Shown here: piece by piece, positions 2-63,352 of the stretch
How the letters are laid out: each line of letters opens with the position of its first letter
Position numbering within the stretch: the stretch's first letter is position 1
From: Corynebacterium pilosum DSM 20521 = CIP 103422
GTDB taxonomy: Bacteria; Actinomycetota; Actinomycetes; Mycobacteriales; Mycobacteriaceae
Direction of reading: 5' to 3'
DNA length: 64,000 nucleotides
NCBI RefSeq assembly: GCF_000373805.1
Contig: NZ_KB892450.1
Location: 62,001-126,000 of the forward strand
Notes under the pieces: model-generated
Databases searched by the model: none
What the model saw: only the letters and a program-made list of their open reading frames with translations
Told to the model about the DNA's origin: nothing
Program-made: the position numbers and the translations under genes

Positions 2-1066
2 GAACATATGATGAGCGTGGCCTCTGGCCTGGATTCCATGGTGATCGGCGAGCAGCAGATTATCGGCCAGGTGCGCACCAGCTACCAGGAAGCACAAGAG
101 CAAGGCACGGTGGGCCCTGGGCTGCATTCCCTGGCTCAGTCCGCGCTGCGCGCAGGTAAGCGCGTGCACACCGAAACCGAGATCGACGATGCTGGTGGCT
201 CCATGGTCACCTTCGCCTTCGATGTCGCCCGCGAAGAGATGGGCGTGGAGGATTTCTCTGGCACCACGGCCCTCGTCCTCGGGGCAGGCGCCATGGCCTC
301 CTTGGCGGCCACCCAATTGGGCAAGCAGGGCGTCGATAAGCTCATTATTGCTAACCGCACCCGATCGCGCGCCGAACGCCTGGCAGAGCACTCGCGGGAG
401 GCAGGGGTGCCGGCGGAGGTCGTGGACTTTGACGCGCGCGCCGGAGCGCTCAGCCGCGTTGACCTGGCAGTATCTGCTACCGCTACCGACGAATTCACCA
501 TCACACCAGAGGACATTTCTGGCCCAGTTATGCTGGTGGACCTCTCGCTGCCACGCGACATCGATGACGCCGTGGAGGACACCGAGGGCGTGCGCCTGGT
601 CAACATCGAATACTTGCACGCCCGCCAGGAACAGGAAGGTGACACGGATTCGTCTGCGCGCCGGGACGCGGAGGCGATTATCGACGAAGAACTCGCCGCC
701 TACACCTCCGCTGAACGTGTTCGCGATGTCACTCCTGCGGTGACCCAACTGCGACGCACTGCGGCCGGGCTTGTCGACGAGGAATATGCGCAGCTGAAGA
801 ACCGGCTGCCCCACTTGGACGACGATGACCTGCGCCAAGTTGCGCGCAGCATGAAGCGCGTGGTGGACAAACTCCTGCACAAGCCCACCGTGATGGTGAA
901 GGAACTGGCGGCGACTGAAGGTACCGTCAGCTATGAGACGGCACTGCAGGTGCTGTTTGGTTTGCCGTCGGCGGCCCCTGCCGTGGCGGTGGACGTGGAT
1001 AAATTGCCCGACCGCGAAGAACTCGATTTAAGCCCAGAGACCCTGGGCAACTCAAAGGAGAACTAA
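2..1066 (+). CDS. hemA: Glutamyl-tRNA reductase, 5' end cut by window edge
   Basis: First committed step of C5-pathway tetrapyrrole synthesis: NADPH-dependent reduction of glutamyl-tRNA to glutamate-1-semialdehyde in the cytosol. The reading frame is open to the first bases of the window. It enters the family block [20 protein letters not shown], so roughly the first 95 residues, including the catalytic Cys domain, lie upstream; the ATGs at 8 and 11 are internal. A Rossmann NADPH domain follows ([20 protein letters not shown], about 65 residues after the ATG at 8; then [14 protein letters not shown]), and then the C-terminal dimerisation domain. hemC starts 2 nt after the stop, so the two are co-transcribed. 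Its product feeds HemL at 15.2 kb. Identity is very secure; only the true start is unseen. Confidence 0.96.
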
Positions 1067-1067
1067 G

Positions 1068-1949
1068 TTGCTGAAGATTGGTACACGGGGCTCGAAGCTG
1101 GCCACCACTCAGGCTGGTCACCAGCGCGACGCGATCAATGCCGCAGGTTACGAATCCGAACTGCACATCGTCACCACTGCTGGTGACGTGAATATGGCTC
1201 CCGTGGAACGCATCGGGGTCGGCGTGTTCACCGCGGCGCTGCGCGAGGCACTGTTCGCCGGCGAGTGCGATATTGCGGTCCACTCGTTTAAGGATCTTCC
1301 GACGGCCTATGAGCCACGCACACACCTGATCACCCCGGTGCGGGAGGATCGTCGTGAAGCACTGATCGCCCGCGACGGACTCACCTTGGACACGCTGCCG
1401 GAGGGGGCGCGGGTGGGAACATCAGCACCGCGACGCATCTCGCAGCTTCGTGCCCGTCGCCCAGACCTGGATATTCAGCCGCTGCGCGGCAACATCGACA
1501 CCCGTATGGGCAAGGTCACCAAGGGTGAGCTTGATGCCGTGGTGCTGGCGTACGCGGGCATCTCGCGCGTGGGCATGGGCAATGTGGCCACCGAGGTCTT
1601 CGAACCGACCGTGATCATGCCGGCCCCCGCGCAGGGCGCCTTGGCCGTGGAGGCGCGCGTGGATGACATGGATGCCCGCGCCGCGATCGACGTGCTGGCA
1701 GACCACGATGTGCTGAAAGCCGTCACCGCTGAGCGCACTGTCCTGGCCACGCTCGAAGCTGGCTGCACCGCGCCAGTGGCCGCCTACGCGGATCTGGACG
1801 GCGATACCCTGACCTTGCATGCGGGCGTCTTCGCGCTGGACGGTTCGCGCCAGCTGGTGCACCACGCCACCGGGACCGATCCGGTGGGGTTGGGCCAGGA
1901 AGTTGCGAATGCTCTGCTGGAGCAGGGCGCCGCAACTATAATTGGCTAG
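1068..1949 (+). CDS. hemC: Porphobilinogen deaminase (hydroxymethylbilane synthase)
   Basis: Polymerises four porphobilinogens into hydroxymethylbilane. The 293-residue product starts at TTG 1068, with AAGGAGA 5-6 nt upstream inside the end of hemA. Family blocks are the N-terminal [14 protein letters not shown], the substrate-binding [10 protein letters not shown] (about residue 70), [14 protein letters not shown] and [12 protein letters not shown], and the dipyrromethane-cofactor cysteine in [12 protein letters not shown] (about residue 230). Length is normal for the family. The last codons contain a TATAAT (1937-1942) that may serve the next gene. Confidence 0.97.
1937..1942 (+). promoter_or_regulatory. 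Putative -10 element TATAAT inside the end of hemC
   Basis: A consensus-like -10 lies 9 nt before the ATG at 1952, so the small downstream gene could be transcribed separately with almost no leader. No convincing -35 is seen. This rests only on motif and spacing. Confidence 0.4.
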
Positions 1950-1951
1950 TT

Positions 1952-2305
1952 ATGGCACTCCTTTCCATTTCCGATGACCGCGTCACCGTCACCTTGAGGT
2001 GGTGGGAAAAGATCGCGGCGCGCCGTTCCCATCTGACGATTCCGCTGCGGGTAATCCGCGGCGTGTCGTGCGTGGATGATGCGCGTGCGGCGCTGGGGGA
2101 GGGGGAGCGTACGTACGCTACCCACATCCGTGGGCTTACTTACTCAGGCACGATGAACCGCGGTGGGAAACCAGTCCTGGGAATCTGCCACGGCCTGGGC
2201 CCAGGCATCGTTTTAGAGCTGGAGGATGCCACCTACGGGGCGATTGTGATCTCCACGCCGCATGCCGAAAAATACGCGGAGATGTTGGCATCGCGCGTTG
2301 CTTAA
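1952..2305 (+). CDS. Conserved hypothetical protein, possible PH-like fold
   Basis: A 117-residue soluble protein with no signal peptide or membrane segment. It begins 2 nt after the hemC stop. It is rich in short alternating hydrophobic stretches (DRVTVTLRWWEKIAA, ITIPLRVIRGVSCV-like, GIVLELEDATYGAIVIST), which suggests a small beta-barrel such as the bacterial PH-like folds; I cannot confirm a family. It lies in the heme operon between hemC and hemD, but nothing in it points to a tetrapyrrole function. It is a real gene by codon usage, tight spacing and its own -10-like box. Confidence 0.75.
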   Translation: MALLSISDDRVTVTLRWWEKIAARRSHLTIPLRVIRGVSCVDDARAALGEGERTYATHIRGLTYSGTMNRGGKPVLGICHGLGPGIVLELEDATYGAIVISTPHAEKYAEMLASRVA

Positions 2306-2603
2306 GGGCAACGGTGGGGCGTGAAAACGACGGTGTAAAATAGGTGGCCGTTTTTCCTATTTGGCTTTCCTAAATTAAGGTGTAACTATCATACGTTGAT
2401 AAACCAACCGTCCACGTGGTCCCCTTATCGGGGATATGGCCTTATGAGCAGCACTTTTATGCGTTCGTTGGGGTGTGGGTGGCGGAGTTATTCAACACTA
2501 GCGAAAACCGTAAACGCCTTCACATTTGGCTTGCCGGCATCTCGGGGCACGTGATCATTTCCGCGTGCTCTTGCCGCAGACCCGAAGTAGAAAAGAATCG
2601 TCT
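2306..2603 (+). other. Intergenic region before hemD
   Basis: About 300 nt, less GC-rich than its surroundings. The 2341-2400 stretch is AT-rich and holds a weak promoter-like pair (TTGGCT 2361-2366 and TAACTA 2383-2388, 16-nt spacer). It also has an imperfect palindrome, CCTAAATTAAGG, around 2369-2380. I see no convincing gene; a 63-codon ORF at 2416-2607 runs into the hemD start and lacks a ribosome binding site. Confidence 0.4.
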
Positions 2604-4301
2604 ATGACCATGGCCCACCAACCGCCCCAGCCGGCGAAAGTCGTCTTCGTCGGCGCAGGCCCGGGCAACCCGGATTTGCTCACCGTGCGTGCACGTGAAG
2701 TTTTGGAAAACAATGCGTACGCCGTCGTCGATAGTGACGTGCTTCCTGAAATCCGTGCCGTCATCGGCGCAGCGTTGCCCGTGCCGCAGCACAAACAGGA
2801 TGCCGCCGACAAGGAATATGAGCAGATGTGCGCCGCAGCGAAGGAGGCTGGGGCGCGCCGTAAGCCACCGAAGCCGGAGGACCCGACCGCGGCCGAGGTG
2901 TCGGAATCCGTGGAGGATTTGGACGCACGGATTGAGCAGATCAAGCAGGTGATGGGCGCGTCCGAGCAGTCCATCATCGATGGTGAGGCTGGCGACGGCG
3001 ACGTGATTCGCCTTGTTGCCGGCAATCCTTTGACGCGTGACTCCGTGATGGAGGAGATCGCCGCCGTGGCCGCCGCCGGCCTGGAGTTCCAGGTGGTGCC
3101 GGGCATGAGCCTGCCGTCGACCGTGCCCTCGTTTGCCGGTATTGCGTTAGGTTCAACCTATACGGAGGCAGATTTGACCAATGATGTTGATTGGGATCAG
3201 TTGGCGTCCGCCCCGCAGCCGCTTGTGCTGCAGGCAGAGGCTGAGGACTTGCCGACGATCGCAGCGGAACTGACCGAGCGTGGCTATTCGCCGTCGACGC
3301 CGGTGTACGTGACGACGAATGGCACCACCCGTTTGCAGCGCACCTTTGATGCCACACTGGGCACCATCGGGAAACTGGATGCGGAGTTGCCAGGAAAACT
3401 CGTCGTCACGCTTGGCACTGTGGCTGATGACCGCACGAAGTATTCGTGGTGGGAAAACCGGCCCCTGTATGGGTGGCGCGTGCTGGTGCCGCGCACGAAG
3501 GCTCAGGCTGCGGCGATGTCGACGCGCTTGTCCGGTTATGGTGCGATTCCGCAGAGCGTGCCGACGATCTCCCTGGAGCCGCCGCGCAACCCGGCGCAGA
3601 TGGATCGCGCCATCAAGGGGATCGTGGAGGGCCGGTACCAGTGGATCGTGTTCACCTCGGTCAACGCAGTGACTGCTGTGTGGGATAAGTTCGCGGACCT
3701 GGGCTTGGATGCGCGTTCCTTCGCGGGCGTGCATCTGGCCGCGGTGGGCACGAAGACTGCTGACGCGATCCGCGCCAAAGGCATGACCCCGGAGCTGCTG
3801 CCGCACCGTACCAAGCAAAACGCGGCCGGACTGGTCGAAGTATTCCCCGAATATGTCGAGGAGCTAGATCCGGTGTCGCGTGTGCTTCTGCCGCGGGCTG
3901 ACCTGGGCACTGATGTGCTGTCGGACGGCCTAGCAGAGCTGGGCTGGGAAGTCGACGATGTGGTGGCGTACCGCACCGTACGCGCCGCGCCGCCACCGCC
4001 GGAGACGCGCGACATGATCAAGACCGGTGGTTTTGATGCCGTCTGCTTCACCTCCGCGTCCACCGTGAAGAACCTGGTGGGCATTGCCGGTAAGCCGCAT
4101 CAGCGCACCATCATCGCCTGCATCGGACCGATGACCGCGGCCGAAGCGGAAGAGCAGGGCCTGCGCGTCGATGTCGTCCCCGAGGTCGCTGATGTGCCGT
4201 CGCTTGTCGACGCCCTGGCCGACCACGTGGCCCAGTTGCGTGCTGCCGGCCAGCTCCCACCGCCGCGCAAGAAGCGGCGTGCGCGCAGGAAGTCGTCCTA
4301 A
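2604..4301 (+). CDS. hemD: Uroporphyrinogen-III synthase with degenerate SUMT-like N-terminal domain
   Basis: A 565-residue fusion. The C-terminal half (from about residue 290, after the WWENRPLYGWRVLVPRTKAQ junction) is uroporphyrinogen-III synthase, which cyclises hydroxymethylbilane: IVFTSVNAVTAVWDKF, AVGTKTADAIRAKG, LLPRADLGTDVLSDGL, CFTSASTVKNLVG. The N-terminal half is a tetrapyrrole methylase fold (VVFVGAGPGNPDLLTVRARE; VVPGMSLPSTVPSFAGIALG) of the CobA/CysG type. The usual GDPFVFGRGGEE block is replaced by AGNPLTRDSVMEE, and a charged insertion sits around residues 70-110, so methylase activity is doubtful. The frame is open further upstream, but ATG 2604 precedes the conserved start; its ribosome binding site is weak. 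A basic tail (KKRRARRKSS) ends the protein. Confidence 0.9.
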   Translation: MTMAHQPPQPAKVVFVGAGPGNPDLLTVRAREVLENNAYAVVDSDVLPEIRAVIGAALPVPQHKQDAADKEYEQMCAAAKEAGARRKPPKPEDPTAAEVSESVEDLDARIEQIKQVMGASEQSIIDGEAGDGDVIRLVAGNPLTRDSVMEEIAAVAAAGLEFQVVPGMSLPSTVPSFAGIALGSTYTEADLTNDVDWDQLASAPQPLVLQAEAEDLPTIAAELTERGYSPSTPVYVTTNGTTRLQRTFDATLGTIGKLDAELPGKLVVTLGTVADDRTKYSWWENRPLYGWRVLVPRTKAQAAAMSTRLSGYGAIPQSVPTISLEPPRNPAQMDRAIKGIVEGRYQWIVFTSVNAVTAVWDKFADLGLDARSFAGVHLAAVGTKTADAIRAKGMTPELLPHRTKQNAAGLVEVFPEYVEELDPVSRVLLPRADLGTDVLSDGLAELGWEVDDVVAYRTVRAAPPPPETRDMIKTGGFDAVCFTSASTVKNLVGIAGKPHQRTIIACIGPMTAAEAEEQGLRVDVVPEVADVPSLVDALADHVAQLRAAGQLPPPRKKRRARRKSS

Positions 4302-4340
4302 GCGAACTGAGACCTAAGCCATAGGCCCTTTACTCGTGTG

Positions 4341-4370
4341 ATTTCCCCCACTATGCTTGGGGGAAATTTC
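4341..4370 (+). terminator. Strong hairpin after hemD overlapping a -10-like box
   Basis: A perfect 10-bp stem, ATTTCCCCCA (4341-4350) with TGGGGGAAAT (4358-4367), and a 7-nt loop, just 39 nt after the hemD stop. It could end the hemD transcript. The loop contains TATGCT (4352-4357), a plausible -10 for the dehydrogenase gene, so it may equally be an operator. The T-run is short. Confidence 0.5.
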
Positions 4371-4389
4371 ACAACGAAGGAGCCAGATC

Positions 4390-5781
4390 ATGGGATACGC
4401 AACCACCAACCCGTTTACCGGAGAGGTCGTCAAGGAATTCGAGACCGCCACCGCCGAGCAGATCGACCAGGCAATCGCCAAGGCTGATCAGGAATTCCGC
4501 GAGTGGAGCCAGCTGCCCGTCGCCCAGCGCGTCGAGGTTCTGCAGAAGGCAGCGGACATCTTGAAGGCGGAGAAGCGCGAGTTCGCCGAGGTGCTCACCC
4601 TGGAGATGGGCAAGCTCATCGGCGAGGCTGAGGCAGAGGTAGACCTGTGCATCGGAATGCTGGAGTACTACGTCAACAACGGCGAGGAACACCTAGCGCC
4701 GCGCTCAATCCCTGCAGAGGGCTTCGATGAGGGCGACGTGCTCCTGGTGAAAGAGCCCCTCGGTGTGCTGTACGCCGTCGAACCGTGGAACTTCCCGTAC
4801 TACCAGGTCATTCGCATTGGTGCGCCACAGTTCACCGCGGGTAACACGATCGTGCTCAAGCACGCGTCGAACGTCCCACAGTCCGCGCTGAAGATGGAGG
4901 AGCTGATCAAGCGGGCCTCTGGTCGCGAGGGACTGTTGGTCAACGTTTTTGCTTCCCACGACGCCAGCGAGCAGATCTTGGGCGATCCTCGCGTGCGTGG
5001 TGTCGCGCTCACCGGTTCGGAGGGCGCGGGTGCGGCGGTTGCCCAGGTGGCCGCGAAGAACCTGAAGAAGTCTACCCTTGAGCTTGGTGGTGCGGACGCG
5101 TTCATCGTGCTTGCCGACGCCGACCTTGACAAGACCGTCGAGTGGGCAGTCTTCGGCCGCCACTGGAACGCGGGCCAGGTCTGTGTGTCGTCGAAACGCA
5201 TGATCATCGTCGACGAGCTTTACGACGAGTTCCTGGCCAAGTACAAGGAGCGTGTGGCGCAGTTGGTGGCTGGCGATCCGATGGATCCGCAGACCACCCT
5301 CGCCCCACTGTCCTCGCAGGGTGCTGCCGATGACCTGATGAAGCAGGTGGAGAAGGCGAAGGCCGATGGCGTCGAGGTTGAGGAGATCACCATTGATCTG
5401 CCTGAGACCGGGGCATTCGTGCAGCCGGCCATCATGACGGGGATCGATCCTTCCTCTGAGGTGGGCTGCTCCGAATTCTTCGGCCCTATCTCCCAGCTCT
5501 ACCGTGCGAAGGACGCTGATCACGCGATCGAGATCGCGAACGCCTCCCCGTTCGGGCTGGGCGGCTCCATCTTCTCCGCGGACGTGGAGAACGCGAAGAA
5601 GTTGGCGCGCAAGATCGACACCGGCATGGTCTACATCAACCAGCCGACTGGCGTGAAGGCGGATATTCCTTTCGGCGGTACAAAGCGCTCTGGCTATGGC
5701 CGCGAGCTGATCGATTTGGGCCTGCTTGAGTTCGTTAACGAGAAGGTCGTGGTGAACCGCGATATCGACGGCGACTTCTAA
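4390..5781 (+). CDS. NAD(P)-dependent aldehyde dehydrogenase, succinate-semialdehyde type
   Basis: Oxidises an aldehyde, most likely succinate semialdehyde, to the acid. The product is 463 residues starting at ATG 4390, with AAGGAG 7 nt upstream; an in-frame ATG at 4357 lies in the hairpin loop and is rejected. Family blocks are VEPWNFPYYQ, LKHASNVPQSALK, the general-base Glu in LELGGADAF, the catalytic Cys in NAGQVCVSSKR, and IPFGGTKRSGYGRELI near the C terminus. It is a single-gene unit between hairpin and hemB, with no GABA or tetrapyrrole partner, so the substrate is inferred from family resemblance only. Confidence 0.88.
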   Translation: MGYATTNPFTGEVVKEFETATAEQIDQAIAKADQEFREWSQLPVAQRVEVLQKAADILKAEKREFAEVLTLEMGKLIGEAEAEVDLCIGMLEYYVNNGEEHLAPRSIPAEGFDEGDVLLVKEPLGVLYAVEPWNFPYYQVIRIGAPQFTAGNTIVLKHASNVPQSALKMEELIKRASGREGLLVNVFASHDASEQILGDPRVRGVALTGSEGAGAAVAQVAAKNLKKSTLELGGADAFIVLADADLDKTVEWAVFGRHWNAGQVCVSSKRMIIVDELYDEFLAKYKERVAQLVAGDPMDPQTTLAPLSSQGAADDLMKQVEKAKADGVEVEEITIDLPETGAFVQPAIMTGIDPSSEVGCSEFFGPISQLYRAKDADHAIEIANASPFGLGGSIFSADVENAKKLARKIDTGMVYINQPTGVKADIPFGGTKRSGYGRELIDLGLLEFVNEKVVVNRDIDGDF

Positions 5782-5889
5782 ACGCCGTGCCGCGCGGGCT
5801 CGTGTGACTGTCAGAGATGGCGAAATACCTCTCGGCGCTGTTGCTGCCTAAGATGGGCCAGTAACGAAACAACCGAAAGGAACACCGCT

Positions 5890-6891
5890 GTGTCTGCGTT
5901 TGAGTTCACCCGCCGCCCGCGTCGGCTCCGCCAGAATCCAGCTCTGCGTGAGCTGGTCGCCGAAACCCGGTTGAGTGCCGCCGATTTCATCCTGCCGATG
6001 TTCGTCGCCGACGGCATCGAAGAGAAAAGAGAGATCAGCTCCATGCCGGGGGTGTACCAGCACACCTCAGACTCTCTGGTGCAGGCCGTCGAGGAGGCCG
6101 CGGAGGCCGGGATTAAGTGCATCGATCTCTTCGGCGTTCCCCTCGATAGCGACAAGGATGCCCAGGGTTCGGTGGCCTGGGCAGAAGACGGCGTGCTCAA
6201 CCGCAACCTGGCACGCCTGCGCAAGGAGTTCGGCGATGACATCATGATCATGGCCGATACCTGCCTCGACGAGTTCACTGACCACGGCCACTGTGGCGTG
6301 GTCACCACCGATCGCCACGGCAACACCATCGTGGATAACGATGAGACCGTGAAGCTCTACCAGCAGATGGCCGTCGCCCAGGCGGAGGCCGGCGCACACA
6401 TTGTCAGCCCATCCGGCATGATGGACGGCCAGATCGGCGCCATCCGCCAGGCCCTAGACGCCGCCGGCTTCCAGGACGTGGTCATCATGGCGTACTCGGC
6501 GAAATACGCCTCCAGTTTCTTCGGCCCGTTCCGCGAGGCAGTCGGTTCCTCGCTGCAAGGCGATCGTCGGACGTACCAGCAGGACCCCGCCAACGTGCGC
6601 GAGTCCCTGCTGGAAACGCAGTTGGATATCGACGAAGGCGCGGATTTTGTCATGGTCAAGCCCGCCATGCCATACCTGGACGTGCTGGCCAAGGTGGCTG
6701 AGATGTCGCCGGTGCCGGTGGCTGCGTACCAGGTCTCTGGCGAGTACGCGATGATCCAGGCCGCGGGCCGCAACGGTTGGGTGGACCAGGACGCGGTGAT
6801 GATGGAGTCCTTGATGTCCATCAAGCGCGCCGGGGCAGACCAAATTCTGACGTACTTCGCCGTCGACGCCGCTAAGGCACTGAAGGGTTAG
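5890..6891 (+). CDS. hemB: Delta-aminolevulinic acid dehydratase (porphobilinogen synthase)
   Basis: Condenses two 5-aminolevulinates to porphobilinogen. The product is 333 residues from GTG 5890 with GAAAGGA upstream. Both Schiff-base lysines are present (AYSAKYASSFFGPFR and FVMVKPAMPYLD). The metal site reads DTCLDEFTDHGHCG: of the three cysteines of zinc enzymes only the outer ones remain and the central Cys is Asp, which suggests Mg2+ rather than Zn2+ dependence. The two following membrane-protein genes and the P-type-ATPase-like gene are closely spaced behind it, so they are probably one transcript. Confidence 0.97.
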   Translation: MSAFEFTRRPRRLRQNPALRELVAETRLSAADFILPMFVADGIEEKREISSMPGVYQHTSDSLVQAVEEAAEAGIKCIDLFGVPLDSDKDAQGSVAWAEDGVLNRNLARLRKEFGDDIMIMADTCLDEFTDHGHCGVVTTDRHGNTIVDNDETVKLYQQMAVAQAEAGAHIVSPSGMMDGQIGAIRQALDAAGFQDVVIMAYSAKYASSFFGPFREAVGSSLQGDRRTYQQDPANVRESLLETQLDIDEGADFVMVKPAMPYLDVLAKVAEMSPVPVAAYQVSGEYAMIQAAGRNGWVDQDAVMMESLMSIKRAGADQILTYFAVDAAKALKG

Positions 6892-6899
6892 CGCAGGTA

Positions 6900-7526
6900 A
6901 TGACGATAGCCCCCAACGGAAGTAACGCTCCCGCCCCGCGAGCGCCACAGCCACCTCCACCACAGCCATCGGGCTCATCAGAGCCCGCCGGCAAGAAGCG
7001 CCCCGAGGTGATCACGTACCTCATCGGGATCTGGTCGTTCATGGTGGGCGCGGAGCTCCTCCACCAGATCTTGAGCGTGACGATGAGTCTGCTCGACCCA
7101 TCGGCCCTGAAAGCCGCCGCGCGGGAAACGGCGGATGAGAACCCAGAGATCCCTGCGGCTGCGGTTGACCTATCGGTCTACCTGTCCATCGGGTTTATGG
7201 CGTTGGTCATGCTTGTGCTCCTCGGCCTGCTGCTGTGGATGTTGGCGCTGTTCGCCAAGCAGCACAAATGGTCTGGTTACGCCCGCCGGTTGCTCTATAT
7301 TTTCTCCCTCTTCTTCGCTTTCCGCATGCTGCTGGTCTTCTTGGCAACCCCGGGTGCTTCAGACGTTCCCCTCTGGTTGTTCGCTTTCGACGGCATGGTG
7401 CAAATTGCGCTTGGAGTTGCGGGAATACTGGGAGTGTTCTTTGCTAACAAGGAAGAAGCGTTAGCGTGGACTGGCGAGGATCAGCGCCCGCCTTTCGCCA
7501 AGTCTGATTCTGACAAGAAGAAATAA
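6900..7526 (+). CDS. Membrane protein with proline-rich N terminus, unknown function
   Basis: A 208-residue protein beginning 9 nt after the hemB stop. Residues 1-40 are a Pro/Ser/Ala-rich, basic, probably disordered segment (a PQPPPPQP run), followed by about four hydrophobic helices (around residues 40-60, 95-120, 130-150, 160-180) and a Lys/Asp-rich tail. No catalytic motif is visible. It is grouped with the next membrane gene and the P-type-ATPase-like gene, so a shared membrane complex is possible but unproven. Confidence 0.8.
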   Translation: MTIAPNGSNAPAPRAPQPPPPQPSGSSEPAGKKRPEVITYLIGIWSFMVGAELLHQILSVTMSLLDPSALKAAARETADENPEIPAAAVDLSVYLSIGFMALVMLVLLGLLLWMLALFAKQHKWSGYARRLLYIFSLFFAFRMLLVFLATPGASDVPLWLFAFDGMVQIALGVAGILGVFFANKEEALAWTGEDQRPPFAKSDSDKKK

Positions 7527-7541
7527 GAAAAGAGCTGCCCC

Positions 7542-8027
7542 ATGCCTTCGATGTTCCCGTCGTTTAGCGCCCACCCCGATGATTTAAACCGGCGTTATGA
7601 CATGACTGTGGGCGACGATTGGCCACGTTCGCTGAAGATTTCTTTCTGGCTGATCATCGTTGGCGCGGTGCTCATGTTGGTCACCGCCATGCGTGCGGTG
7701 GCCGTCGGGGTGCCGGACCAGGCTCCGAACCAGGAGTTCGCGGAGGCGTATTTGCGCAACATGTGGTTCATGGTCGTCGTCAATGCGGTTACGGCCTTGG
7801 TGATGGCTGGTGCTGCCTCTTACCTGCGTAAAGGCAGCCGCACGGCCAGGATCGTCGTTGCGGTATGCATCGCTGTCGCATGTTTTTTCAACGTGGTGGC
7901 CTTCGCCATTCGCATCGCTGGGCTGTCTGCGATCGTGATCGTCGCGGTGCTTGCGTTCGCCGCACTGTTCCTCTTCCGCCCGAAGGCTAATGCTTATATT
8001 GCGAAAAAGACGGAAGAGTCGCGATGA
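7542..8027 (+). CDS. Four-helix membrane protein, unknown function
   Basis: A 161-residue protein with four predicted membrane helices after a short soluble N terminus (about residues 30-52, 72-95, 103-122, 126-144) and a charged C-terminal tail (AKKTEESR). The start is ATG 7542 with AAAAGAG upstream. Its stop overlaps the start of the P-type-ATPase-like gene by 4 nt (ATGA, 8024-8027), so the two are translationally coupled. I do not recognise a family. Confidence 0.8.
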   Translation: MPSMFPSFSAHPDDLNRRYDMTVGDDWPRSLKISFWLIIVGAVLMLVTAMRAVAVGVPDQAPNQEFAEAYLRNMWFMVVVNAVTALVMAGAASYLRKGSRTARIVVAVCIAVACFFNVVAFAIRIAGLSAIVIVAVLAFAALFLFRPKANAYIAKKTEESR

Positions 8028-10615
8028 GCGACCCCCATGGTGACCACGTCTCTCGTGCGATTGATTCCGCAGTTGAGGCGGCCCGGAGCGTGGGCATTGA
8101 GCTTAACGACGATCAACCGGCCCATGATTTAGCGGCTCGACCAAAGACGTCGCTGGCGTTTGACCTGCGAAACTTGCCCGATGTCACGGATCTCGGGGCT
8201 GTGGAAAATGCGCTAGAAGAGCTACCGGGTGTGCGTGCGCGCCTTGTGTACTCGACGAAGACCGCGTGGATCACGGCACCGGATTTGATGGATCCTTCTG
8301 ATGTGATCGCCGTGATGGAGCGTTACGGTATTGACGCGGTGATGACGGATTCTTCTCTGCGGCGCCGCATCGTGGCGTCCCATACGGAGGAGCGCCACGG
8401 CGCGGTTCCTCGTCGTGCGATGCGTGGAACGAAAGGCATGAGCGGGCGGATGCGCCGCCTCCAGGCGGAGGAGGCGCGGGCCTTAGATTCGGCGCGCACG
8501 GCCGGTTTCCTGCGTAATCAGCGAGCCAACCAGCGGCGCACGGGGGCCGACCAGGACGTTTTGTACACCTCGCGGGAGATGATGACGGTCCCGCGCCTCT
8601 TGGTGGCGTTGATCCTAGGCATTCCTGTGATTGTGGTGTCGTATTTTCAGGCATTGCAGTTTCCGGGTTGGCAGTGGGTGGCGCTTGTGATGAGCGCTCC
8701 CGTGGTGGTGTGGTCGGCGTGGCCTTTCCACCGCGCGCTGGTCGGTGGGGTGCGCCGGGGCCTGACTGCCCTGGATGGGGCGAGTTCGCTGGCGATTCTG
8801 GTGGCGTTTACGTGGTCCATCGCTCTGCTTGTGGGCACTCCGGCGGGGGATATTGGGTGGAATTCGGAGCCGAAGTGGTTCGCGTTTAACCACTCTCGGT
8901 TGTCCGACGGTGAGCTCTTTCTCGACGTGGCCTGCGGGATGACCATCTTGCTGCTGGCCGGCCGCATCTGGACGATGCGCGCTAGACCCAGCCTGCTCAA
9001 CGAGATGGCGCGGCGTCGACCTGACCCGTCAACGCAGGTGGCTCTCTCGGTGCGCAATAGGGCGACCGGCGCAGTCGGGGTGCACCATGTGAACTTGGGG
9101 GAGGTCAGCCCCGGCGACGATATTGTGCTGCATGCTGGCGAGATCATCCCGGTCGATGGACGCGTGATCGGCGGTTCGTGCGAACTTGAGCCCGGGCTGA
9201 TCGACGCCCGCGAAGACATGGTGGTCAAGGTGAATTCGCAGGTCTTTGCGGGTTCGCGGATTGTCGATGGGCAGATCAAGGTGCGCGTGGAAAAGACCGG
9301 GCACCAGACCCGTATGGCCGCTACGCACCGCTGGATTCAGGATGCTTCGCAGCGCCAGCACCAGGCCACCATGCTGTCCACGAGGACGGCGAGCTGGTTG
9401 ATCCCCGCCGCTGTGGTGATAGCCTTGATTGATTTCATGGCGTGGGTGGCGCTGTCGAATAATTACAACGCCGCGATGGCGACCGCGCTGGCGATTCTGG
9501 CCTCGGTAGCCCCGACGGCGTTGGCGCTGTCGCCCTCGATCGCGATCCGGCTGGGCATCGAATCGTCGGCACGCAACGGCATCATGATCCGCGACGGCAA
9601 GACGCTACGCAAGCTGGAAAACCTGGACACCGTCATCTTCAACCGGGTGGGCACGCTCGTCCTGCCGGAGATGAACGTGGAAACGATCACCGCGGAGCGT
9701 GGCGAAAACGCTGACATGGTGCTGCGCGTGGCGGGCGCTTTGTCGATGGAATCGGACCACCCTTCGGCCCAGGCGATCGTCCGCGCCGCCCGCGAAGCCC
9801 GCGACCACGCCGAAGGCGGCGACGAGGTGCCGCACTGGATTGACGTGACCAACCTGGAGATCACCAAGGAAGGCGATTTCAAGGGCCGCATCGAGCTATT
9901 CACGCGTGACGACGAGGGCGTGGAGCACCCGCACCAGGTCGATGCACTGCTGTGGCGGCCCACCAACCTTTCTAGCCTGCACGGCCGGCTCGCCGTTGCC
10001 GCTACGGCAGGCGGTACGCCCATCGTCGTGCGGTGGAAGGGTAAAGACCGCGGCGTGATTACCCTCTATGACCCGATCAAGGACGATGCTCAAGAAGCCG
10101 TGACCCGCCTGGAGGACATGGGGCTGGAGACCATGATGCTCTCGCGCGATACCTATCCCGTGGCGCGCAAGTTCGCGGACCTGCTGGGCATTTCCTCTGT
10201 TCTTGCGGGCATCAGCAGCAACGATAAGCCGAAGACTGTGCGTTCCGTGCACACCCAAGGTGCCAACGTGGCCATGGTGGGGGACCACTCGGTGGAGTCC
10301 TCCCTGAAGGTCGCGGACGTGGGCATCTTGGTGAATGCTGGCGACAAACTCGACACCAGCCGCGACATGCACGACAAGCTGTCGGTCGCCGTGGTGCGCG
10401 ACGATGTCTCCGCCATCCCTCAGCTGATCGAGCAAGCCCGCCGCGTGTGCACCATCATTGACCGCAATATCGTCTATTCGTGGGCGTATAACATCACGGC
10501 GATGGCGCTGGCCGTCGCAGGGCTGCTGCACCCGATGGCTGCGACGGTGCTGATGCTGGGCATGTCGCTGTTTGTGGAAGTACGCTCCGTGTCGGCGAAA
10601 AAATTCCCCCACTAG
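8024..10615 (+). CDS. P-type ATPase-like membrane protein lacking catalytic residues
   Basis: 863 residues with the architecture of a P1B metal-transporting ATPase: an N-terminal HMA-like ferredoxin fold without a CxxC (about 40-108), a long basic linker, membrane helices from about 190, an actuator-like region (VSPGDDIVLHAGEIIPVDGR) and a P-domain. Key residues are missing. The membrane CPC is Ala-Pro-Thr (about residues 496-498), the phosphorylated Asp of DKTGT is Asn (FNRVGTL, N540), the TGES loop reads as VNSQ, and GDGxND is GDHSVESS. The fold seems kept (SDHPSAQAI; VGDHSVESSLKVADVGI) and the frame is intact over 2.6 kb, so it is probably expressed as a non-transporting or regulatory protein. 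Similar genes sit between hemB and hemE in relatives, from memory, where they are annotated as cation ATPases. Confidence 0.85.
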   Translation: MSDPHGDHVSRAIDSAVEAARSVGIELNDDQPAHDLAARPKTSLAFDLRNLPDVTDLGAVENALEELPGVRARLVYSTKTAWITAPDLMDPSDVIAVMERYGIDAVMTDSSLRRRIVASHTEERHGAVPRRAMRGTKGMSGRMRRLQAEEARALDSARTAGFLRNQRANQRRTGADQDVLYTSREMMTVPRLLVALILGIPVIVVSYFQALQFPGWQWVALVMSAPVVVWSAWPFHRALVGGVRRGLTALDGASSLAILVAFTWSIALLVGTPAGDIGWNSEPKWFAFNHSRLSDGELFLDVACGMTILLLAGRIWTMRARPSLLNEMARRRPDPSTQVALSVRNRATGAVGVHHVNLGEVSPGDDIVLHAGEIIPVDGRVIGGSCELEPGLIDAREDMVVKVNSQVFAGSRIVDGQIKVRVEKTGHQTRMAATHRWIQDASQRQHQATMLSTRTASWLIPAAVVIALIDFMAWVALSNNYNAAMATALAILASVAPTALALSPSIAIRLGIESSARNGIMIRDGKTLRKLENLDTVIFNRVGTLVLPEMNVETITAERGENADMVLRVAGALSMESDHPSAQAIVRAAREARDHAEGGDEVPHWIDVTNLEITKEGDFKGRIELFTRDDEGVEHPHQVDALLWRPTNLSSLHGRLAVAATAGGTPIVVRWKGKDRGVITLYDPIKDDAQEAVTRLEDMGLETMMLSRDTYPVARKFADLLGISSVLAGISSNDKPKTVRSVHTQGANVAMVGDHSVESSLKVADVGILVNAGDKLDTSRDMHDKLSVAVVRDDVSAIPQLIEQARRVCTIIDRNIVYSWAYNITAMALAVAGLLHPMAATVLMLGMSLFVEVRSVSAKKFPH

Positions 10616-10634
10616 TCCCAAGGAGTATGTCACC

Positions 10635-52583: not shown

Positions 52584-52612
52584 TTGTGATCGGCTGTGCT
52601 CCTTGTTATAGT
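52584..52612 (+). promoter_or_regulatory. Promoter of rplJ-rplL
   Basis: TTGTGA (52584-52589), 17-nt spacer, TATAGT (52607-52612). The predicted transcript has a leader of about 215 nt. Confidence 0.65.
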
Positions 52613-52618
52613 CAGCGA

Positions 52619-53356: not shown

Positions 53357-53429
53357 AACAAGACTCTAGAACACACCACAATTTTTACTCAGGCCCACAG
53401 ATTGCGGCCTGAACAGAAAGGAAGCCACC

Positions 53430-53819
53430 ATGGCTAAGCTCACCAAGGACGAGCTCATTGAGCAGTTCAAGGAAATGACCCTCATCGAACTTTCCGAGTT
53501 CCTGAAGGAATTCGAGGAGGTCTTCGACGTGACCGCTGCTGCTCCAGTTGCTGTTGCAGCTGCAGGCGCACCTGCTGGCGGCGACGCTGCTGCTGAGGAA
53601 GAGAAGGACGAGTTCGACGTTGTCCTGACCGCTGCAGGCGACAAGAAGATCGGTGTTATTAAGGCTGTCCGCGAGATCGTCTCCGGCCTGGGCCTGAAGG
53701 ACGCGAAGGAAATGGTCGAGTCCGCACCAAAGGCTGTCCTCGAGGGCGCAAACAAGGAAGACGCAGAGGCTGCAAAGGCGAAGCTGGAAGAGGCAGGCGC
53801 TACTGTCGAGCTGAAGTAA
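53430..53819 (+). CDS. rplL: 50S ribosomal protein L7/L12
   Basis: 129 residues, very acidic. N-terminal dimerisation domain ([20 protein letters not shown]), Ala-rich hinge (about residues 35-55) and the C-terminal factor-binding domain ([32 protein letters not shown]). AAAGGAAG lies upstream. It is the last gene of the rplJL operon. Confidence 0.98.
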
Positions 53820-53834
53820 TTCCGCTTACTGCTT

Positions 53835-53885
53835 GAAACCCCTACCGTTTGGAGTTGAAACTCCGCGCGGTGGGGGTTTCCTTTT
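53835..53885 (+). terminator. Terminator of rplJ-rplL
   Basis: GAAACCCCTACCG (53835-53847) pairs with CGGTGGGGGTTTC (53868-53880), with an inner GGAGTT/AACTCC stem, followed by CTTTTG. Confidence 0.88.
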
Positions 53886-53915
53886 GTCTTGGACGCAACC
53901 TGTAGACTTCCCCTT

Positions 53916-54821: not shown

Positions 54822-55180
54822 TCCTCGCCCAAGACGCGGTACATGCAGCGGAAGGCTGCGAGGGTCTTTGGGACGCCGATATAAGGCATGAGGTGGACGA
54901 AGCACTCGGCGACCTCTTCCTTGCTCATGCCCGCCTGGTTCAAGGCGGTGGCGATGTGGCCCTCAAGCTGAGGCTCGGTGCCGCCCATCGCGGCAAGCGC
55001 GGCCATCGTCAGCATCTGACGATCGCGCAGTTCTAGGCCCTCGCGCTGGTAGGTGCCCCCGAAGATGCCGCCGACGACGAAGTCCGATGCGCCGGGGGCA
55101 TAGCGGTCGAGTTGCTCTTTAAAGCCTTCGCCGGTGTTGGTGTCATCGATGAATTTCTGACCCTTGTCCATAGAAAACAT
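54818..55180 (-). CDS. Carboxymuconolactone decarboxylase-family protein
   Basis: 120 residues with the single CMD domain: GGIFGGTYQREGLELRDRQM and TEPQLEGHIATALNQAGMSK (the family E-x-x-x-H). It lacks the AhpD CxxC, so a peroxidase-partner role is unlikely; it resembles stand-alone gamma-carboxymuconolactone decarboxylase-like proteins. AAAGGAA lies upstream of ATG 55180. No aromatic catabolism genes are nearby. Confidence 0.85.
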   Translation of the reverse strand: MFSMDKGQKFIDDTNTGEGFKEQLDRYAPGASDFVVGGIFGGTYQREGLELRDRQMLTMAALAAMGGTEPQLEGHIATALNQAGMSKEEVAECFVHLMPYIGVPKTLAAFRCMYRVLGED

Positions 55181-55618
55181 GGAGATATTCCTTTCTGTTG
55201 GAAAACGTTATGGCCTCACCGTAGCAGGAAAATGCCTGTACAGCGCCCGTTGGGCGAGTGGGCCGCGCGAGGCGGTGCGCCGTGTTATTGCAAAAAACAG
55301 GGGAGTCGGTGCTAGAGTTCCCTGCAGCACCAATCGGCGGGCCCGCGCGGTGGGAAGACGGCATGGCGTGGAACGGTCAGGGTAGTTAGTTTTCGTTCGC
55401 CTTTACAAGCGCCGACCTATCGTATAAGGTAGGTCTTTGCGCTGGAAGCCGTCTCCGGCGACACTGAAACCTTGCTCACGGCTGATTTGGAAAAATCGAC
55501 TTGACAAGGTGATTTTGTGCTATCCGGGGGCGGAACTTCCACAGCAGACCGAATGCTAATTATCCAGCGGAATTCCTGAAGATTGTAAAGCCAGAGCAAT
55601 CGGAGGGACCCGCGTGAG
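55181..55618 (+). promoter_or_regulatory. rpoB upstream region with several promoter-like elements
   Basis: About 440 nt without a supported gene. Candidates: TTGCAA (55288-55293), 19-nt spacer, TAGAGT (55313-55318) with an upstream TGC; and TTTACA (55402-55407), 17-nt spacer, TAAGGT (55425-55430). The second -10 overlaps an inverted repeat, GACCTA (55414-55419) and TAGGTC (55430-55435). A TTGACA at 55501-55506 lacks a well-spaced -10. The leader to rpoB would be 180-300 nt. Confidence 0.5.
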
Positions 55619-58600
55619 GTGCTGGAAGGACCCATCTTGGCAGTCTCCCGCCAGACCAAGTCAGTGGCCGATATCCCCGGAGCCCAGAAGCGGTACTCGT
55701 TCGCGAAGATCAGCGAACCGATCCCCGTTCCCGGGCTCCTTGACGTACAGTCCGAATCCTTTTCGTGGCTCGTCGGAACGCCGGAGTGGCGTGAACGACA
55801 GCAGGAGTTACGCGGACCAGATGCCCGCGTAACCAGTGGCCTCGAGGACATCCTCGATGAGCTGTCCCCGATTCAGGATTACTCGGGCAACATGTCCCTC
55901 TCCCTGTCGGAGCCACGCTTCGACTCGGTGAAGTACACCGTCGACGAGTGTAAAGACAAGGACATTAACTACTCTGCTCCGCTTTACGTGACCGCAGAGT
56001 TCATTAACAACGACACCCAAGAGATCAAGTCTCAGACGGTGTTCATCGGCGATTTCCCGCTGATGACCGACAAGGGCACGTTCATCGTGAACGGTACCGA
56101 GCGTGTCGTCGTCTCCCAGCTGGTACGTTCACCAGGTGTGTACTTCGACGAGACCATCGACAAGTCCACCGAGCGTCCATTGCATTCCGTGAAGGTGATC
56201 CCTTCCCGCGGTGCATGGCTCGAGTTCGACGTCGATAAGCGCGATACCGTCGGCGTGCGTATTGATCGTAAGCGCCGTCAGCCTGTCACCGTGCTGTTGA
56301 AGGCACTGGGGTGGACCGAGGCGCAGATTAAGGAGCGCTTCGGCTTCTCCGAGATCATGATGACCACCCTCGAATCCGATGGCGTGGCCAATACCGACGA
56401 GGCACTGCTGGAGATCTACCGCAAGCAGCGTCCAGGCGAGCAGCCGACGCGCGACCTTGCGCAGTCCCTGCTGGAGAACTCGTTCTTCAACGCAAAGCGT
56501 TATGACCTGGCGAAAGTGGGTCGTTACAAGATCAACCGCAAGCTGGGCCTCGGCGGCGACCACGATGGTCTGCTTACCTTGACCGAGGAAGATCTCGCGA
56601 CCTCCCTCGAGTACCTGGTGCGCCTGCATGCAGGTGAGCGTGAGATGACGTCGCCAACGGGCGAGGTCATCCCGATCAACACCGACGACATCGACCACTT
56701 CGGTAACCGTCGTCTGCGCACCGTGGGCGAGCTGATCCAGAACCAGGTCCGCGTGGGCCTGTCCCGCATGGAGCGTGTCGTGCGCGAGCGCATGACCACT
56801 CAGGACGCAGAGTCGATCACCCCGACCTCCCTGATCAACGTGCGCCCAGTCTCGGCTGCGATCCGTGAGTTCTTCGGTACCTCGCAGCTGTCGCAGTTCA
56901 TGGACCAGAACAACTCCCTGTCCGGTCTGACGCACAAGCGTCGTCTGTCCGCACTGGGCCCTGGTGGTCTGTCCCGTGAGCGCGCCGGCATTGAGGTCCG
57001 AGACGTGCACCCATCGCACTACGGCCGCATGTGCCCGATTGAGACCCCGGAAGGCCCGAACATTGGCCTGATCGGTGCGCTGTCCTCCTACGCCCGCGTG
57101 AACGCGTTCGGCTTTATCGAGACCCCATACCAGAAGGTCGAAAACGGCAAGCTGACCGACCAGATCGACTACCTCACCGCAGACGAGGAGGACCGTTTCG
57201 CGATTGCTCAGGCAGCAACCGAAATGGACGATGAGGGCAACATCACCGAGGAGCGTATCGAGGTCCGTATCAAGGACGGCGATATCGCGGTGACCGACGC
57301 TCAGGGCGTCGACTACCTCGACATTTCCCCACGCCAGATGGTGTCTGTCGCAACCGCTATGATTCCGTTCTTGGAGCATGACGACGCGAACCGTGCCCTG
57401 ATGGGTGCCAACATGCAGAAGCAGGCTGTGCCGCTGCTGCGTGCTGAGGCACCTTATGTGGCAACCGGTATGGAGCAGCGCGCCGCATATGACGCAGGTG
57501 ACATGGTCATCTCTGCGAAGGCGGGCGTTGTTGAGAACGTCTCCGGTGACATGATCACGATCATGGACGACGAAGGCCAGCGCGACACCTACTTGCTGCG
57601 CACCTACGAGCGCACCAACCAGGGCACCTGCTACAACCAGCTGCCACTGGTCAACATCGGCGATCGTGTCGAAGCAGGCCAGGTCATTGCTGACGGCCCA
57701 GGCACCAAGGACGGCGAAATGTCGCTTGGCCGCAACCTGCTGGTTGCGTTTATGCCTTGGGAAGGCCACAACTACGAGGACGCCATCATCCTGAACCAGC
57801 GCGTTGTGGAAGATGACATCCTCACCTCCGTTCACATCGAAGAGCACGAGATCGATGCCCGCGACACCAAGCTGGGTGCCGAGGAAATCACTCGCGAGAT
57901 CCCGAACGTGGGCGAAGACGTCCTCAAGGACCTCGACGAGCGCGGTATCGTCCGCATTGGTGCAGACGTGCGCGACGGCGACATCCTCGTCGGTAAGGTC
58001 ACCCCGAAGGGCGAGACCGAGCTGACCCCAGAGGAGCGCCTGCTGCGCGCCATCTTCGGTGAGAAGGCCCGCGAAGTGCGCGACACCTCCCTGAAGGTGC
58101 CACACGGTGAGACCGGCAAGGTCATCGCTGTGCGTCGCTTCTCTCGCGAGGACGACGACGATCTGAGCCCAGGCGTGAACGAGATGATTCGCGTCTACGT
58201 CGCCCAGAAGCGCAAGATTCAGGACGGCGACAAGATGGCTGGCCGCCACGGCAACAAGGGTGTCGTCGGCAAGATCCTGCCGCAGGAAGACATGCCATTC
58301 ATGGCTGACGGTACGCCTGTGGACATCATCCTGAACACCCACGGTGTGCCACGTCGTATGAACATTGGTCAGGTCCTCGAGGTGCACTTGGGCTGGCTGG
58401 CGAAGGCAGGCTGGACCGTGAACCCAGACGACCCTGCGAACGCGAAGCTGCTGGAGACCCTGCCTGAGGCGCTGTACGACGTGCCGGCAGACTCTCTGAC
58501 CGCTACTCCTGTGTTCGATGGTGCAACCAACGAAGAGATCGCAGGCCTGCTTGCGAACACCAAGCCGAACCGTGACGGTGATGTCATGGTCGATGGTGAC

Positions 58601-62200: not shown

Positions 62201-63258
62201 CCCCAACCGGTGTGTGCGCGAAGTGCTACGGCAAGTCCATGGCTTCCGGCCACTTGGTCGATATCGGCGAGGCAGTGGGTATTGTCGCTGCTCAGTCGAT
62301 TGGTGAGCCTGGCACCCAGCTGACGATGCGTACGTTCCACCAGGGTGGTGTCGGCGGCGACATTACCGGCGGTCTACCACGTGTGCAGGAGCTGTTCGAG
62401 GCCCGCGTGCCGAAGAACCGCGCCCCGATCGCGTCGGTTGCCGGTACGGTCTCGCTTTCCGACGAGGGCAACTTCTGGACCCTCACCATTACCCCGGACG
62501 ATGGTTCGGACGATGTGGTGTACGAGAAGCTGTCGAAGCGTCAGGGCCTGGCACAGGTGCGTCGTCCAATGGAGTCCAACCCGGATGCCATGATCGAGCG
62601 CTCTCTGCGCGAAGGTGACCACGTTGAGGTGGGCGACCGTCTGCTGCGCGGTGCGGCTGACCCGCACGACGTGCTCGAGGTTCTGGGCCGTCGCGGTGTG
62701 GAGAAGCACTTGATCGATGAGGTGCAGGCCGTGTACCGCACCCAGGGTGTGTCCATTCACGACAAGCACATCGAGATCATCATTCGCCAGATGCTGCGCC
62801 GTGGCACTGTCATCGACGCGGGATCCACCCAGTACCTCCCAGGTACTTTGGCGGATCTGTCCGAGGCGAAGCAGGTCAACTCTGGTGTGGTCGCCGATGG
62901 TGGTCAGCCTGCAGAGTTGCGCTCCGAGATCATGGGTATCACCAAGGCGTCGCTTGCGACCGAGTCCTGGCTGTCCGCCGCCTCGTTCCAGGAGACCACG
63001 CGTGTGCTCACTGATGCTGCGATCAACCGTCGTTCCGACCAGCTGATCGGTCTGAAGGAGAACGTGATCATCGGTAAGCTCATCCCGGCTGGTACTGGTA
63101 TCTCACGCTACCGCAACATCTCCGTGAAGCCGACCGAGGCCGCACGTTCCGTGGCGTACTCGATCCCAAGCTTCGGCGACTCCATCTACGGCGATGATGG
63201 CTACGGTGAGTTCACCGGCGCCTCCGTCCCGCTGGATGAGTACGGATTCGACATGTAA
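59260..63258 (+). CDS. rpoC: DNA-directed RNA polymerase subunit beta'
   Basis: 1332 residues from GTG 59260. N-terminal zinc site [20 protein letters not shown], bridge and active centre [20 protein letters not shown] (Mg2+ Asp triad, about residue 535), second zinc site with Cys in DDCGTRQG and [19 protein letters not shown], and trigger loop [20 protein letters not shown]. The actinobacterial length is normal. A large terminator follows, bracketed by inverted copies of the GCTTNNCGACGA word. Confidence 0.98.
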
Positions 63259-63285
63259 AACGCAGGCCTCTGGCTAATTCGGTCT

Positions 63286-63352
63286 GCTTAACGACGATAG
63301 GCCCCGCCTTTTCCTGGTCTAAACAGGAGAGGCGGGGCCTTCGTCGTAAAGC
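63286..63352 (+). terminator. rpoBC terminator bracketed by inverted GCTTNNCGACGA copies
   Basis: Inner stem GGCCCCGCCT (63300-63309) with AGGCGGGGCC (63330-63339), plus TCCTG/CAGGA inside. It is extended outwards by GCTTAACGACGA (63286-63297) and TCGTCGTAAAGC (63341-63352), which pair except at one position. Confidence 0.85.

Follow-up and report, generated by a model that had tools for sequence, protein, structure and literature searches.

To our knowledge, uptake sequences have been described for just two Gram-negative families, the Neisseriaceae and the Pasteurellaceae. The uptake signal sequence (USS) of the latter has further preferred positions downstream of its core. In the Neisseriaceae, the DNA uptake sequence (DUS) is present in approximately 940 to 5,900 copies per genome and in dialects one or a few bases apart, which track phylogeny and act as barriers, and uptake by transformation is thought to bias the survival of copies (PMC3630211). 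The DUS is also used in terminator hairpins (PMC1852404) and its receptor is ComP (PMC3868556). Haemophilus influenzae carries around 1,300 copies of the USS (PMC5217627), for which a minor pilin has been predicted as receptor (PMC12616744). Among actinobacteria, Micrococcus luteus transforms with ComEA, ComEC and Flp/Tad pili, and the excerpt of that paper used here mentions no uptake sequence for it (PMC6370729). Here we describe a 12-bp word, GCTTNNCGACGA, in a stretch of 64,000 nucleotides from Corynebacterium pilosum DSM 20521 = CIP 103422 (contig NZ_KB892450.1, positions 62,001 to 126,000), hereafter the window. From the sequence comparisons below we think it fairly probable that the word is a DUS/USS-like putative uptake self-recognition sequence of Corynebacterium, read by a receptor of the ComEA-ComEC/Tad machinery, and would thus behave like a DUS rather than being one. 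As with the DUS, it is short and abundant, occurs in both orientations, has dialects one base apart and pairs up in hairpins at some transcript ends; it differs in being unrelated in sequence and phylum, in having a core interrupted by NN, in using fewer hairpins and in having no known counterpart of ComP, at which no search was aimed. It resembles the USS in abundance and, modestly, in terminator use, again with another sequence in another phylum, and its host shares ComEA, ComEC and Tad/Flp pili with the actinobacterium M. luteus.

An earlier note on this DNA had counted about 45 copies (27 plus, 18 minus). The finding stands, and its extent exceeds that count: the window contains 48 exact copies of GCTTNNCGACGA, 29 on the plus and 19 on the minus strand. 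Chance would supply 0.33 ± 0.59 (maximum 2 in 100 dinucleotide shuffles), in keeping with the estimate of well under one made at the time. The source genome (2,531,632 bases in 35 contigs) contains 1593 copies, 779 forward and 814 reverse, and 29 copies (7 + 22) of the reversed pattern used as control. In a 457-kb sample of the same genome we found 314 copies, where Markov models of order 3, 4 and 5 predict 2.6, 5.0 and 10.5, hence the excess survives the model comparison that had been proposed for it, and the models together with the reversed control rule out a composition artefact.

The word tolerates little change in its CGACG part. Numbering letters from 0 at the first G, single changes within CGACG each yield merely 0–7 copies in the 457-kb sample (0.5 to 4.7 expected), the outermost letters of GCTTNNCGACGA are softer (13 to 28 copies per change) and the variant GCGTNNCGACGA is tolerated, with 118 copies against 5.9 expected. 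Among the 47 copies called intergenic in this sample, the NN is mostly A or T, the preceding base is C in 70%, and C is favoured at +15 (64%) and +21 (70%), a likeness to the downstream positions of the USS. Logos of other genomes in both dialects show C at +15 and +21 again, and codon position three may be a partial cause. The word as first given is real; its final A, however, marks one dialect, and across the genus the core, GCTTNNCGACG, is more common than any other form. The final-A form dominates core words in the source genome and in five others (G022, G036, G099, G100 and G033, genomes being cited by our own handles). An own word for the window's dialect group is GCTTATCGACGA, and GCTTNNCGATGC is dialect B, the T form.

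The earlier note suggested counting the word in related species, and doing so showed enrichment in most of the Corynebacterium genomes. We counted three forms in 242 genomes, some less than 90% complete, finding 1–1593 copies of GCTTNNCGACGA, 7–1614 of GCTTNNCGACGB and 4–646 of GCTTNNCGATGC per genome, with forward and reverse numbers approximately equal. By thresholds of our own choice and a hand tally, 170 genomes reached 200 or more core words, counted as GCTTNNCGACGA together with GCTTNNCGACGB, with up to 1,964 in G199. A further 17 were assigned to dialect B (core below 200 and at least 60 GCTTNNCGATGC; 73–551 copies observed), and 55 showed neither form, ten of which (G008, G103, G108, G114, G124, G139, G170, G178, G231, G232) have 101–195 core words and are weakly enriched or uncertain. 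In most of the genus, copies number from hundreds to nearly two thousand, far above chance and codon bias, as in DUS/USS genomes. Outside Corynebacterium, 199 genomes sampled from the same order had counts near the reversed control, with a highest ratio of about 2.4.

Named species were scored with GCTTNNCGAYG (reversed control in brackets), covering 28 of the 80 helicase loci kept, with dialects taken from 22-kb loci. High counts were found in C. lubricantis 1333 (115), C. haemomassiliense 1456 (115), C. tuberculostearicum 1039 (61), C. aurimucosum 1259 (76), C. minutissimum 1206 (86), C. striatum 1262 (84), C. silvaticum 1162 (46) and, in the T form, KPL1814 1064 (83) and C. macginleyi 532 (81). 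Lower counts were found in C. mastitidis 242 (22) and C. meridianum 157 (70), and C. glyciniphilum, C. dentalis, C. falsenii, C. suicordis, sp. ACRPH, a faecal metagenome-assembled genome (MAG), Williamsia, Gordonia and Dietzia were near control. The 761-aa helicase of the source genome has C. lubricantis as its closest named match (81%, among the 80 matches kept). Limitation to one genus, within this sample, would also suit a word recognised by some other apparatus for DNA transfer. A TraB-type translocase or a gene-transfer agent, for example, would likewise enrich words by biased replacement and yield dialects. Such a reading requires a transfer system common to most of the genus, and we regard it as very unlikely.

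The T form GCTTNNCGATGC surfaced unsought when 80 kb from each of four genomes with low counts of the window's word was searched de novo; G001 and G004 gave this form. In the word-free G007 and G011 (80 kb each) no scanned form stood out as a dispersed word. The first 80 kb of G011 show heavy repetition of CACCNNCACC and CGACGNNGACG, perhaps low-complexity coding repeats, and the first 20 kb of G100 hold six TGTGGATAAC on both strands, perhaps DnaA boxes of the origin. Lineage dialects comprise an added A and a change of C9 to T accompanied by C at +12, the latter being present in 93% of T-form words in G001, 71% in G004 and 97% in six other genomes. As with DUS and USS, dialects are consistent within species groups, with G024 and C. 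macginleyi mixed. G024, tallied among the 170 (352 core, 646 dialect B), has 646 GCTTNNCGATGC, 136 GCTTNNCGACGA and 216 other core words. In C. macginleyi (G102), GCTTNNTGATG occurs 240 times against a control of 9, alongside 230 GCTTNNCGATGC, as if another one-base change of dialect were under way there. Around ten other genomes have a modest excess of GCTTNNTGATG, with about 100 copies.

We placed these forms on a tree of 46 helicase sequences, midpoint-rooted for drawing only. The three outgroups lie next to a clade of Corynebacterium that lacks the word (glyciniphilum, falsenii, dentalis, suicordis, ACRPH and the faecal MAG; fork support 88/81), and other word-free or weak taxa (G131, G012, G008, G043, meridianum, mastitidis) are scattered among word-bearing ones. 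The T form appears at four places, namely G032, G107+G004+G209+G027, G097+G129 and G001+KPL1814+macginleyi, the last group having as its sister the C-form tuberculostearicum + ACRPO (100/100). On a parsimony count over this tree, some of whose inner forks are weak (80/51, 86/75), the dialect would have changed at least three times.

The sister pair allowed individual words to be compared in place. We aligned 107.5 kb of C. tuberculostearicum with 120 kb of KPL1814, which gave 94 kb of alignment at 81% identity, and 56 of 60 C. tuberculostearicum core words had an aligned counterpart. In 32 of the 56, the fixed letters differ by C9 to T alone, three are unchanged and two read TGATG. Against 80 kb of G001, 21 of 35 aligned words show C9 to T and two are unchanged. 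Outside words, by comparison, 88 of 378 CGACG are unchanged and 64 read CGATG (Fisher p 4e-8 for KPL1814, 2e-6 for G001). In 35 of 56 words none of the remaining eight fixed letters differs, compared with 843 of 4630 (18%) frame-matched neighbouring positions. In the reverse direction, 32 of 53 aligned KPL1814 T words are C words in C. tuberculostearicum and four are T in both. Within the T group, KPL1814 and G001 have the same word at 38 of 39 sites, and KPL1814 and C. macginleyi at 22 of 40, with TGATG at eight of the 40.

These replacements bear on two further explanations. A restriction-modification or epigenetic mark could be bipartite like this word, and the dialects differ by C versus T in a CpG, as decay of methyl-C would produce. 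Restriction targets are normally avoided, not enriched, and the strong enrichment seen here is the opposite. Moreover, CGACG outside words shows no comparable shift while the other eight letters of the word are kept, hence plain CpG mutational bias is insufficient and such a mark is highly unlikely. A site bound by a protein of the nucleoid or of chromosome organisation would explain a random spread over both strands. However, 32 of 56 orthologous copies lie one base apart with the rest kept, which suggests a strong drive on each copy, where thousands of nucleoid sites would be expected to be weakly selected. No protein of this kind came to light, in an analysis that made no search aimed at one, and we consider this explanation improbable.

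Gene calls in the 457 kb came from a simple codon model rather than curated annotation; they number 402 and cover 87% of the sample. By these calls, 40 of the 48 window copies lie within genes and eight outside. Five of the eight (8101, 28879, 43533, 45682, 52570) sit inside longer open reading frames (ORFs), hence only 41464, 63286 and 63341 are clearly non-coding. The word is thus found, as had been described, in unrelated genes on both strands and also in non-coding DNA. Its copies and near-copies in the window are as follows, by coordinates, strand and position.
769..780, plus, word copy in gene 8-1066(+)
1349..1360, minus, word copy in gene 1068-1949(+)
5217..5228, plus, word copy in gene 4390-5781(+)
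8101..8112, plus, word copy outside gene calls, inside ORF 8024-10615(+)
10847..10858, plus, word copy in predicted gene 10635-10985(+)
13378..13389, plus, word copy in gene 12095-13495(+)
14707..14718, minus, word copy in gene 14269-15096(-)
15047..15058, minus, word copy in gene 14269-15096(-)
17343..17354, plus, word copy in gene 17167-17742(+)
17472..17483, plus, word copy in gene 17167-17742(+)
18910..18921, minus, word copy in gene 18543-20186(+)
19349..19360, plus, word copy in gene 18543-20186(+)
20419..20430, minus, word copy in gene 20230-21258(+), inverted pair with 20451
20451..20462, plus, word copy in gene 20230-21258(+)
23930..23941, minus, word copy in gene 23686-24792(+), overlapping the 23940 copy, inverted
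23940..23951, plus, word copy in gene 23686-24792(+)
24174..24185, plus, word copy in gene 23686-24792(+)
24450..24461, plus, word copy in gene 23686-24792(+)
25937..25948, plus, word copy in gene 25698-26789(-)
26017..26028, minus, word copy in gene 25698-26789(-)
27115..27126, plus, word copy in gene 26875-27429(-)
28879..28890, plus, word copy outside gene calls, inside ORF 28808-29374(+)
30549..30560, minus, word copy in gene 30472-31422(+)
30807..30818, plus, word copy in gene 30472-31422(+)
33306..33317, plus, word copy in gene 31939-34260(+)
34118..34129, minus, word copy in gene 31939-34260(+)
34800..34811, minus, word copy in gene 34266-35888(+)
35261..35272, plus, word copy in gene 34266-35888(+)
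36723..36734, plus, word copy in gene 36338-37552(+)
39337..39348, minus, word copy in gene 38877-40106(-)
39778..39789, minus, word copy in gene 38877-40106(-)
40330..40341, plus, word copy in gene 40265-41239(+)
41050..41061, plus, word copy in gene 40265-41239(+)
41146..41157, plus, word copy in gene 40265-41239(+)
41446..41475, minus, non-coding hairpin of word 41464-41475(-) and a core copy without final A at 41446-41457(+)
43533..43544, plus, word copy outside gene calls, inside ORF 42444-43601(-)
44763..44774, plus, word copy in gene 44188-44904(+)
45634..45645, plus, word copy close to the end of gene 45071-45667(+)
45682..45693, minus, word copy outside gene calls, inside ORF 45664-46665(+), inverted to 45634
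47926..47937, minus, word copy in gene 46749-48260(+)
50140..50151, plus, word copy in gene 49973-52474(-)
51225..51236, minus, word copy in gene 49973-52474(-)
52206..52217, minus, word copy in gene 49973-52474(-)
52570..52581, plus, word copy outside gene calls, inside ORF 52556-53356(+)
54800..54811, minus, word copy in gene 54006-54821(+)
62454..62465, plus, sole exact word copy in rpoC (59260-63258)
63286..63352, no strand, hairpin after rpoC with stem base formed by the word pair 63286-63297(+) and 63341-63352(-)
3400..55781, both strands, 20 copies of the variant GCGTNNCGACGA, first bases 3400-, 3556+, 5188-, 9563-, 9904+, 10822-, 13333+, 20043-, 23021+, 24018+, 24639+, 26981-, 27248-, 30992-, 32847+, 33263-, 34406+, 37224+, 43312-, 55770-
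330..56240, both strands, 13 core copies without final A (GCTTNNCGACGB), first bases 330-, 4202+, 5109+, 18740+, 19238+, 22357+, 22711-, 27323-, 28922+, 31284+, 36267-, 41446+, 56229-

In the 457-kb sample, 267 copies are genic, of which 161 share the frame that encodes Leu-x-Asp-Asp/Glu, and 14, 12, 45, 19 and 16 fall in the remaining five. The 47 copies called intergenic (0.76 per kb, versus 0.67 in genes) are an upper bound, as the simple gene calls miss some frames (five of eight in the window). The word is thus spread across coding and non-coding DNA in approximately equal orientations, as are DUS and USS. The shared frame is what a codon-pair or protein-motif habit (Leu-X-Asp-Asp/Glu), an alternative raised in the earlier note, would produce. 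However, synonymous shuffles within genes gave 15.0 ± 3.0 copies (maximum 22 in 100 runs) against the 267 observed, which refutes it, and global synonymous draws (11.9), context-aware draws (14.4) and a codon-order shuffle (2.7) also fell short, ruling out a coding artefact. At LxD[DE] sites, CTT encodes the Leu 190 times out of 252, compared with 1265 of 11,881 Leu codons in the sample overall, hence it is the word that dictates the codons. With 106 of the genic copies outside the main frame, so that all six are used and not one alone, and a one-base difference between dialects, we give this explanation almost no weight.

Hairpin use by the word is real but a minority behaviour. Inverted pairs had been reported at two transcript ends in the window, and both are predicted to fold. 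Downstream of rpoC, the pair 63286(+)/63341(-) gives a strong hairpin (-54.7 kcal/mol, z -9.0, matched by 0 of 200 shuffles), and 41464(-) gives a weaker one with the core copy at 41446(+), which ends without the A (-19.2 kcal/mol, z -2.9, 2 of 200 shuffles). Across the 457 kb, nine of the 47 words called intergenic have an inverted partner (at least 9 of 10 letters, within 60 bp) and one has a direct partner.

Some regions are poor in words. The scarcity noted for rpoB and rpoC is confirmed, with no exact copy in rpoB (55619-59113) and one in rpoC, at 62454. The five longest word-free gaps in the sample of the source genome all contain conserved genes, namely rpoBC (by Pfam) and fusA-tuf, cytochrome bc1/oxidase, metE-like and dnaE genes (recognised by eye from translations), which rules out foreign islands as the explanation of these gaps. 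In the C. striatum plasmid pTP10, 50 of 51.4 kb were read and seven core words found, all between 5.8 and 13.1 kb (within 7.4 kb), with no word in the other ~42 kb read. Approximately 22 would be expected at chromosomal density and two by an order-3 Markov model, a comparison that is anecdotal for a single plasmid. Two of the words lie in tetAB and five among chromosome-type genes (dihydroorotate dehydrogenase, mshC and similar). This sole word-bearing stretch of the resistance plasmid combines tetAB with dihydroorotate dehydrogenase, mshC and undecaprenyl-diphosphatase. As the words of pTP10 are confined to a chromosome-type stretch, they may be a sign of which plasmid segments came from a chromosome.

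A recombination or repair landmark, Chi-like and read by a RecBCD/AddAB/AdnAB-type enzyme, would be selected for break repair with dialects that track the enzyme. Chi, too, is a short, abundant, non-palindromic word, and such a role would suit a word of this kind found genome-wide. Known Chi sites are strongly polar, whereas the Corynebacterium word has almost no replication polarity and differs by dialect in place at orthologous copies. In G022 (a closed genome, 22 windows, GCGT variant included) there are 145 forward and 156 reverse copies, split 82/68 and 63/88 over the two chromosome halves. This gives a slight excess on the G-rich strand (169 versus 132, p 0.038), which would favour a Chi-like role and is probably owed at least partly to the preferred coding frame. 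In the source genome, orientation is 229 versus 203 (p 0.23, GCGT variant included). Gaps between words are random in length (coefficient of variation 1.06). Polarity is thus close to even, without a strong replichore bias of the Chi or KOPS type, and a polar site was rejected; the lack of strand bias claimed for the window extends to the genome and to the genus-wide tables. Absence of words from most of pTP10 is likewise not demanded by a repair role, and overall we regard a Chi-like landmark as unlikely.

An uptake word would need a reader. Corynebacterium has an outer mycomembrane, and the source genome encodes the uptake genes that the earlier note had recommended looking for: comEA and comEC are adjacent, with SLBB and HHH_3 domains in ComEA, and a Tad/Flp cluster lies beside a HAD-like gene and a DECH helicase gene. 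The Tad/Flp cluster is present, whole or mostly, at 19 of 19 loci compared, covering dialects A, B and none. Of the 242 genomes, all have a ComEA match (E ≤0.001, some weak), 241 have ComEC and 239 have TadA (232 over the cut-off). The host thus encodes uptake machinery, yet the genes are near-universal and fail to predict the word, so their presence was rejected as a predictor. M. luteus transforms with the same parts, which makes a role for those of Corynebacterium plausible. In many word-free genomes (e.g. G007, G011, G018, G230), TadA lies further from TIGR03819 (E 1e-109 to 1e-125) than it does in most word-bearing ones, which may be a clade effect or a real pilus change. Two T-form genomes have poor competence-gene matches, G185 (90% complete) with no ComEC match and a weak ComEA (4.6e-5), and G129 with a weak ComEA (3.4e-5) and a ComEC match; possible causes are gaps in the assemblies, divergence or a recent loss.

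Between the sister dialect groups, identity is 69% for ComEA (five versus five genomes), 72% for the Tad minor pilin (six versus six) and 89% for the neighbouring helicase, which is suggestive at most as a hint to the reader. In an exploratory scan, four ComEA columns looked associated with the T form, and two columns of the helicase control reached the same p-values. A prediction fixed beforehand, on a ComEA residue that went with dialect B in two lineages, failed on new genomes: among new B genomes, E is found at the position in G175 only, from a lineage of the training set, with A in G032, G156 and G024 and Q in G097. E also occurs in the core genomes G149, G211, G195, G089 and G044 and in the word-free G131. 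As four of five new B genomes lack E and core and word-free genomes carry it, we rejected ComEA as dialect reader through this residue.

A word that is abundant, non-polar, genus-limited, contrary to codon choice, dialect-forming and altered in place between lineages at many orthologous sites needs a reader that acts on each copy and biases its survival. In the uptake reading, a sequence-specific receptor for double-strand DNA on a Tad/Flp pilus, ComEA and ComEC machine would bind the word; fragments bearing it would be taken up and recombined more often, and copies would build up by biased replacement. Were the preference of the receptor to shift by one base, copies would follow and dialects would form, favouring DNA exchange inside a species group. 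The likeness to DUS and USS proposed in the earlier note is strengthened by near-restriction to the genus, dialects and one-base conversion in place, and is left without help from the machinery genes, which do not discriminate. Several points weigh against an uptake function: ComEC, ComEA and TadA are present with or without the word, hairpin use is modest (nine of 47), G022 shows a weak strand bias, the ComEA residue prediction failed, and no natural transformation of a Corynebacterium was reported among the literature matches listed. Nor was an uptake word in Corynebacterium or other Actinobacteria reported among the matches listed, which cover open PMC papers. In the excerpt used of a survey of 569 genomes (PMC5217627), three Corynebacterium species are listed with CRISPR-related pairs only.

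Taken further, we see a little better than an even chance that most of the genus uses a self-DNA uptake code independent of that of the Neisseriaceae and Pasteurellaceae, with at least three dialects, a reader that shifted by one base more than once, hundreds of copies rewritten in place (extrapolated from 107 kb) and C. macginleyi apparently in mid-shift (GCTTNNTGATG). If true, this would be a third, independent origin of uptake sequences, in an actinobacterial genus, and would make testable the old question of whether uptake words are selected or accumulated by uptake bias. The sister pair C. tuberculostearicum and KPL1814 offers a natural before-and-after of a one-base reader shift. An uptake code would also imply natural transformation in common commensals, would predict their gene-exchange partners and would suggest a route for introducing DNA.

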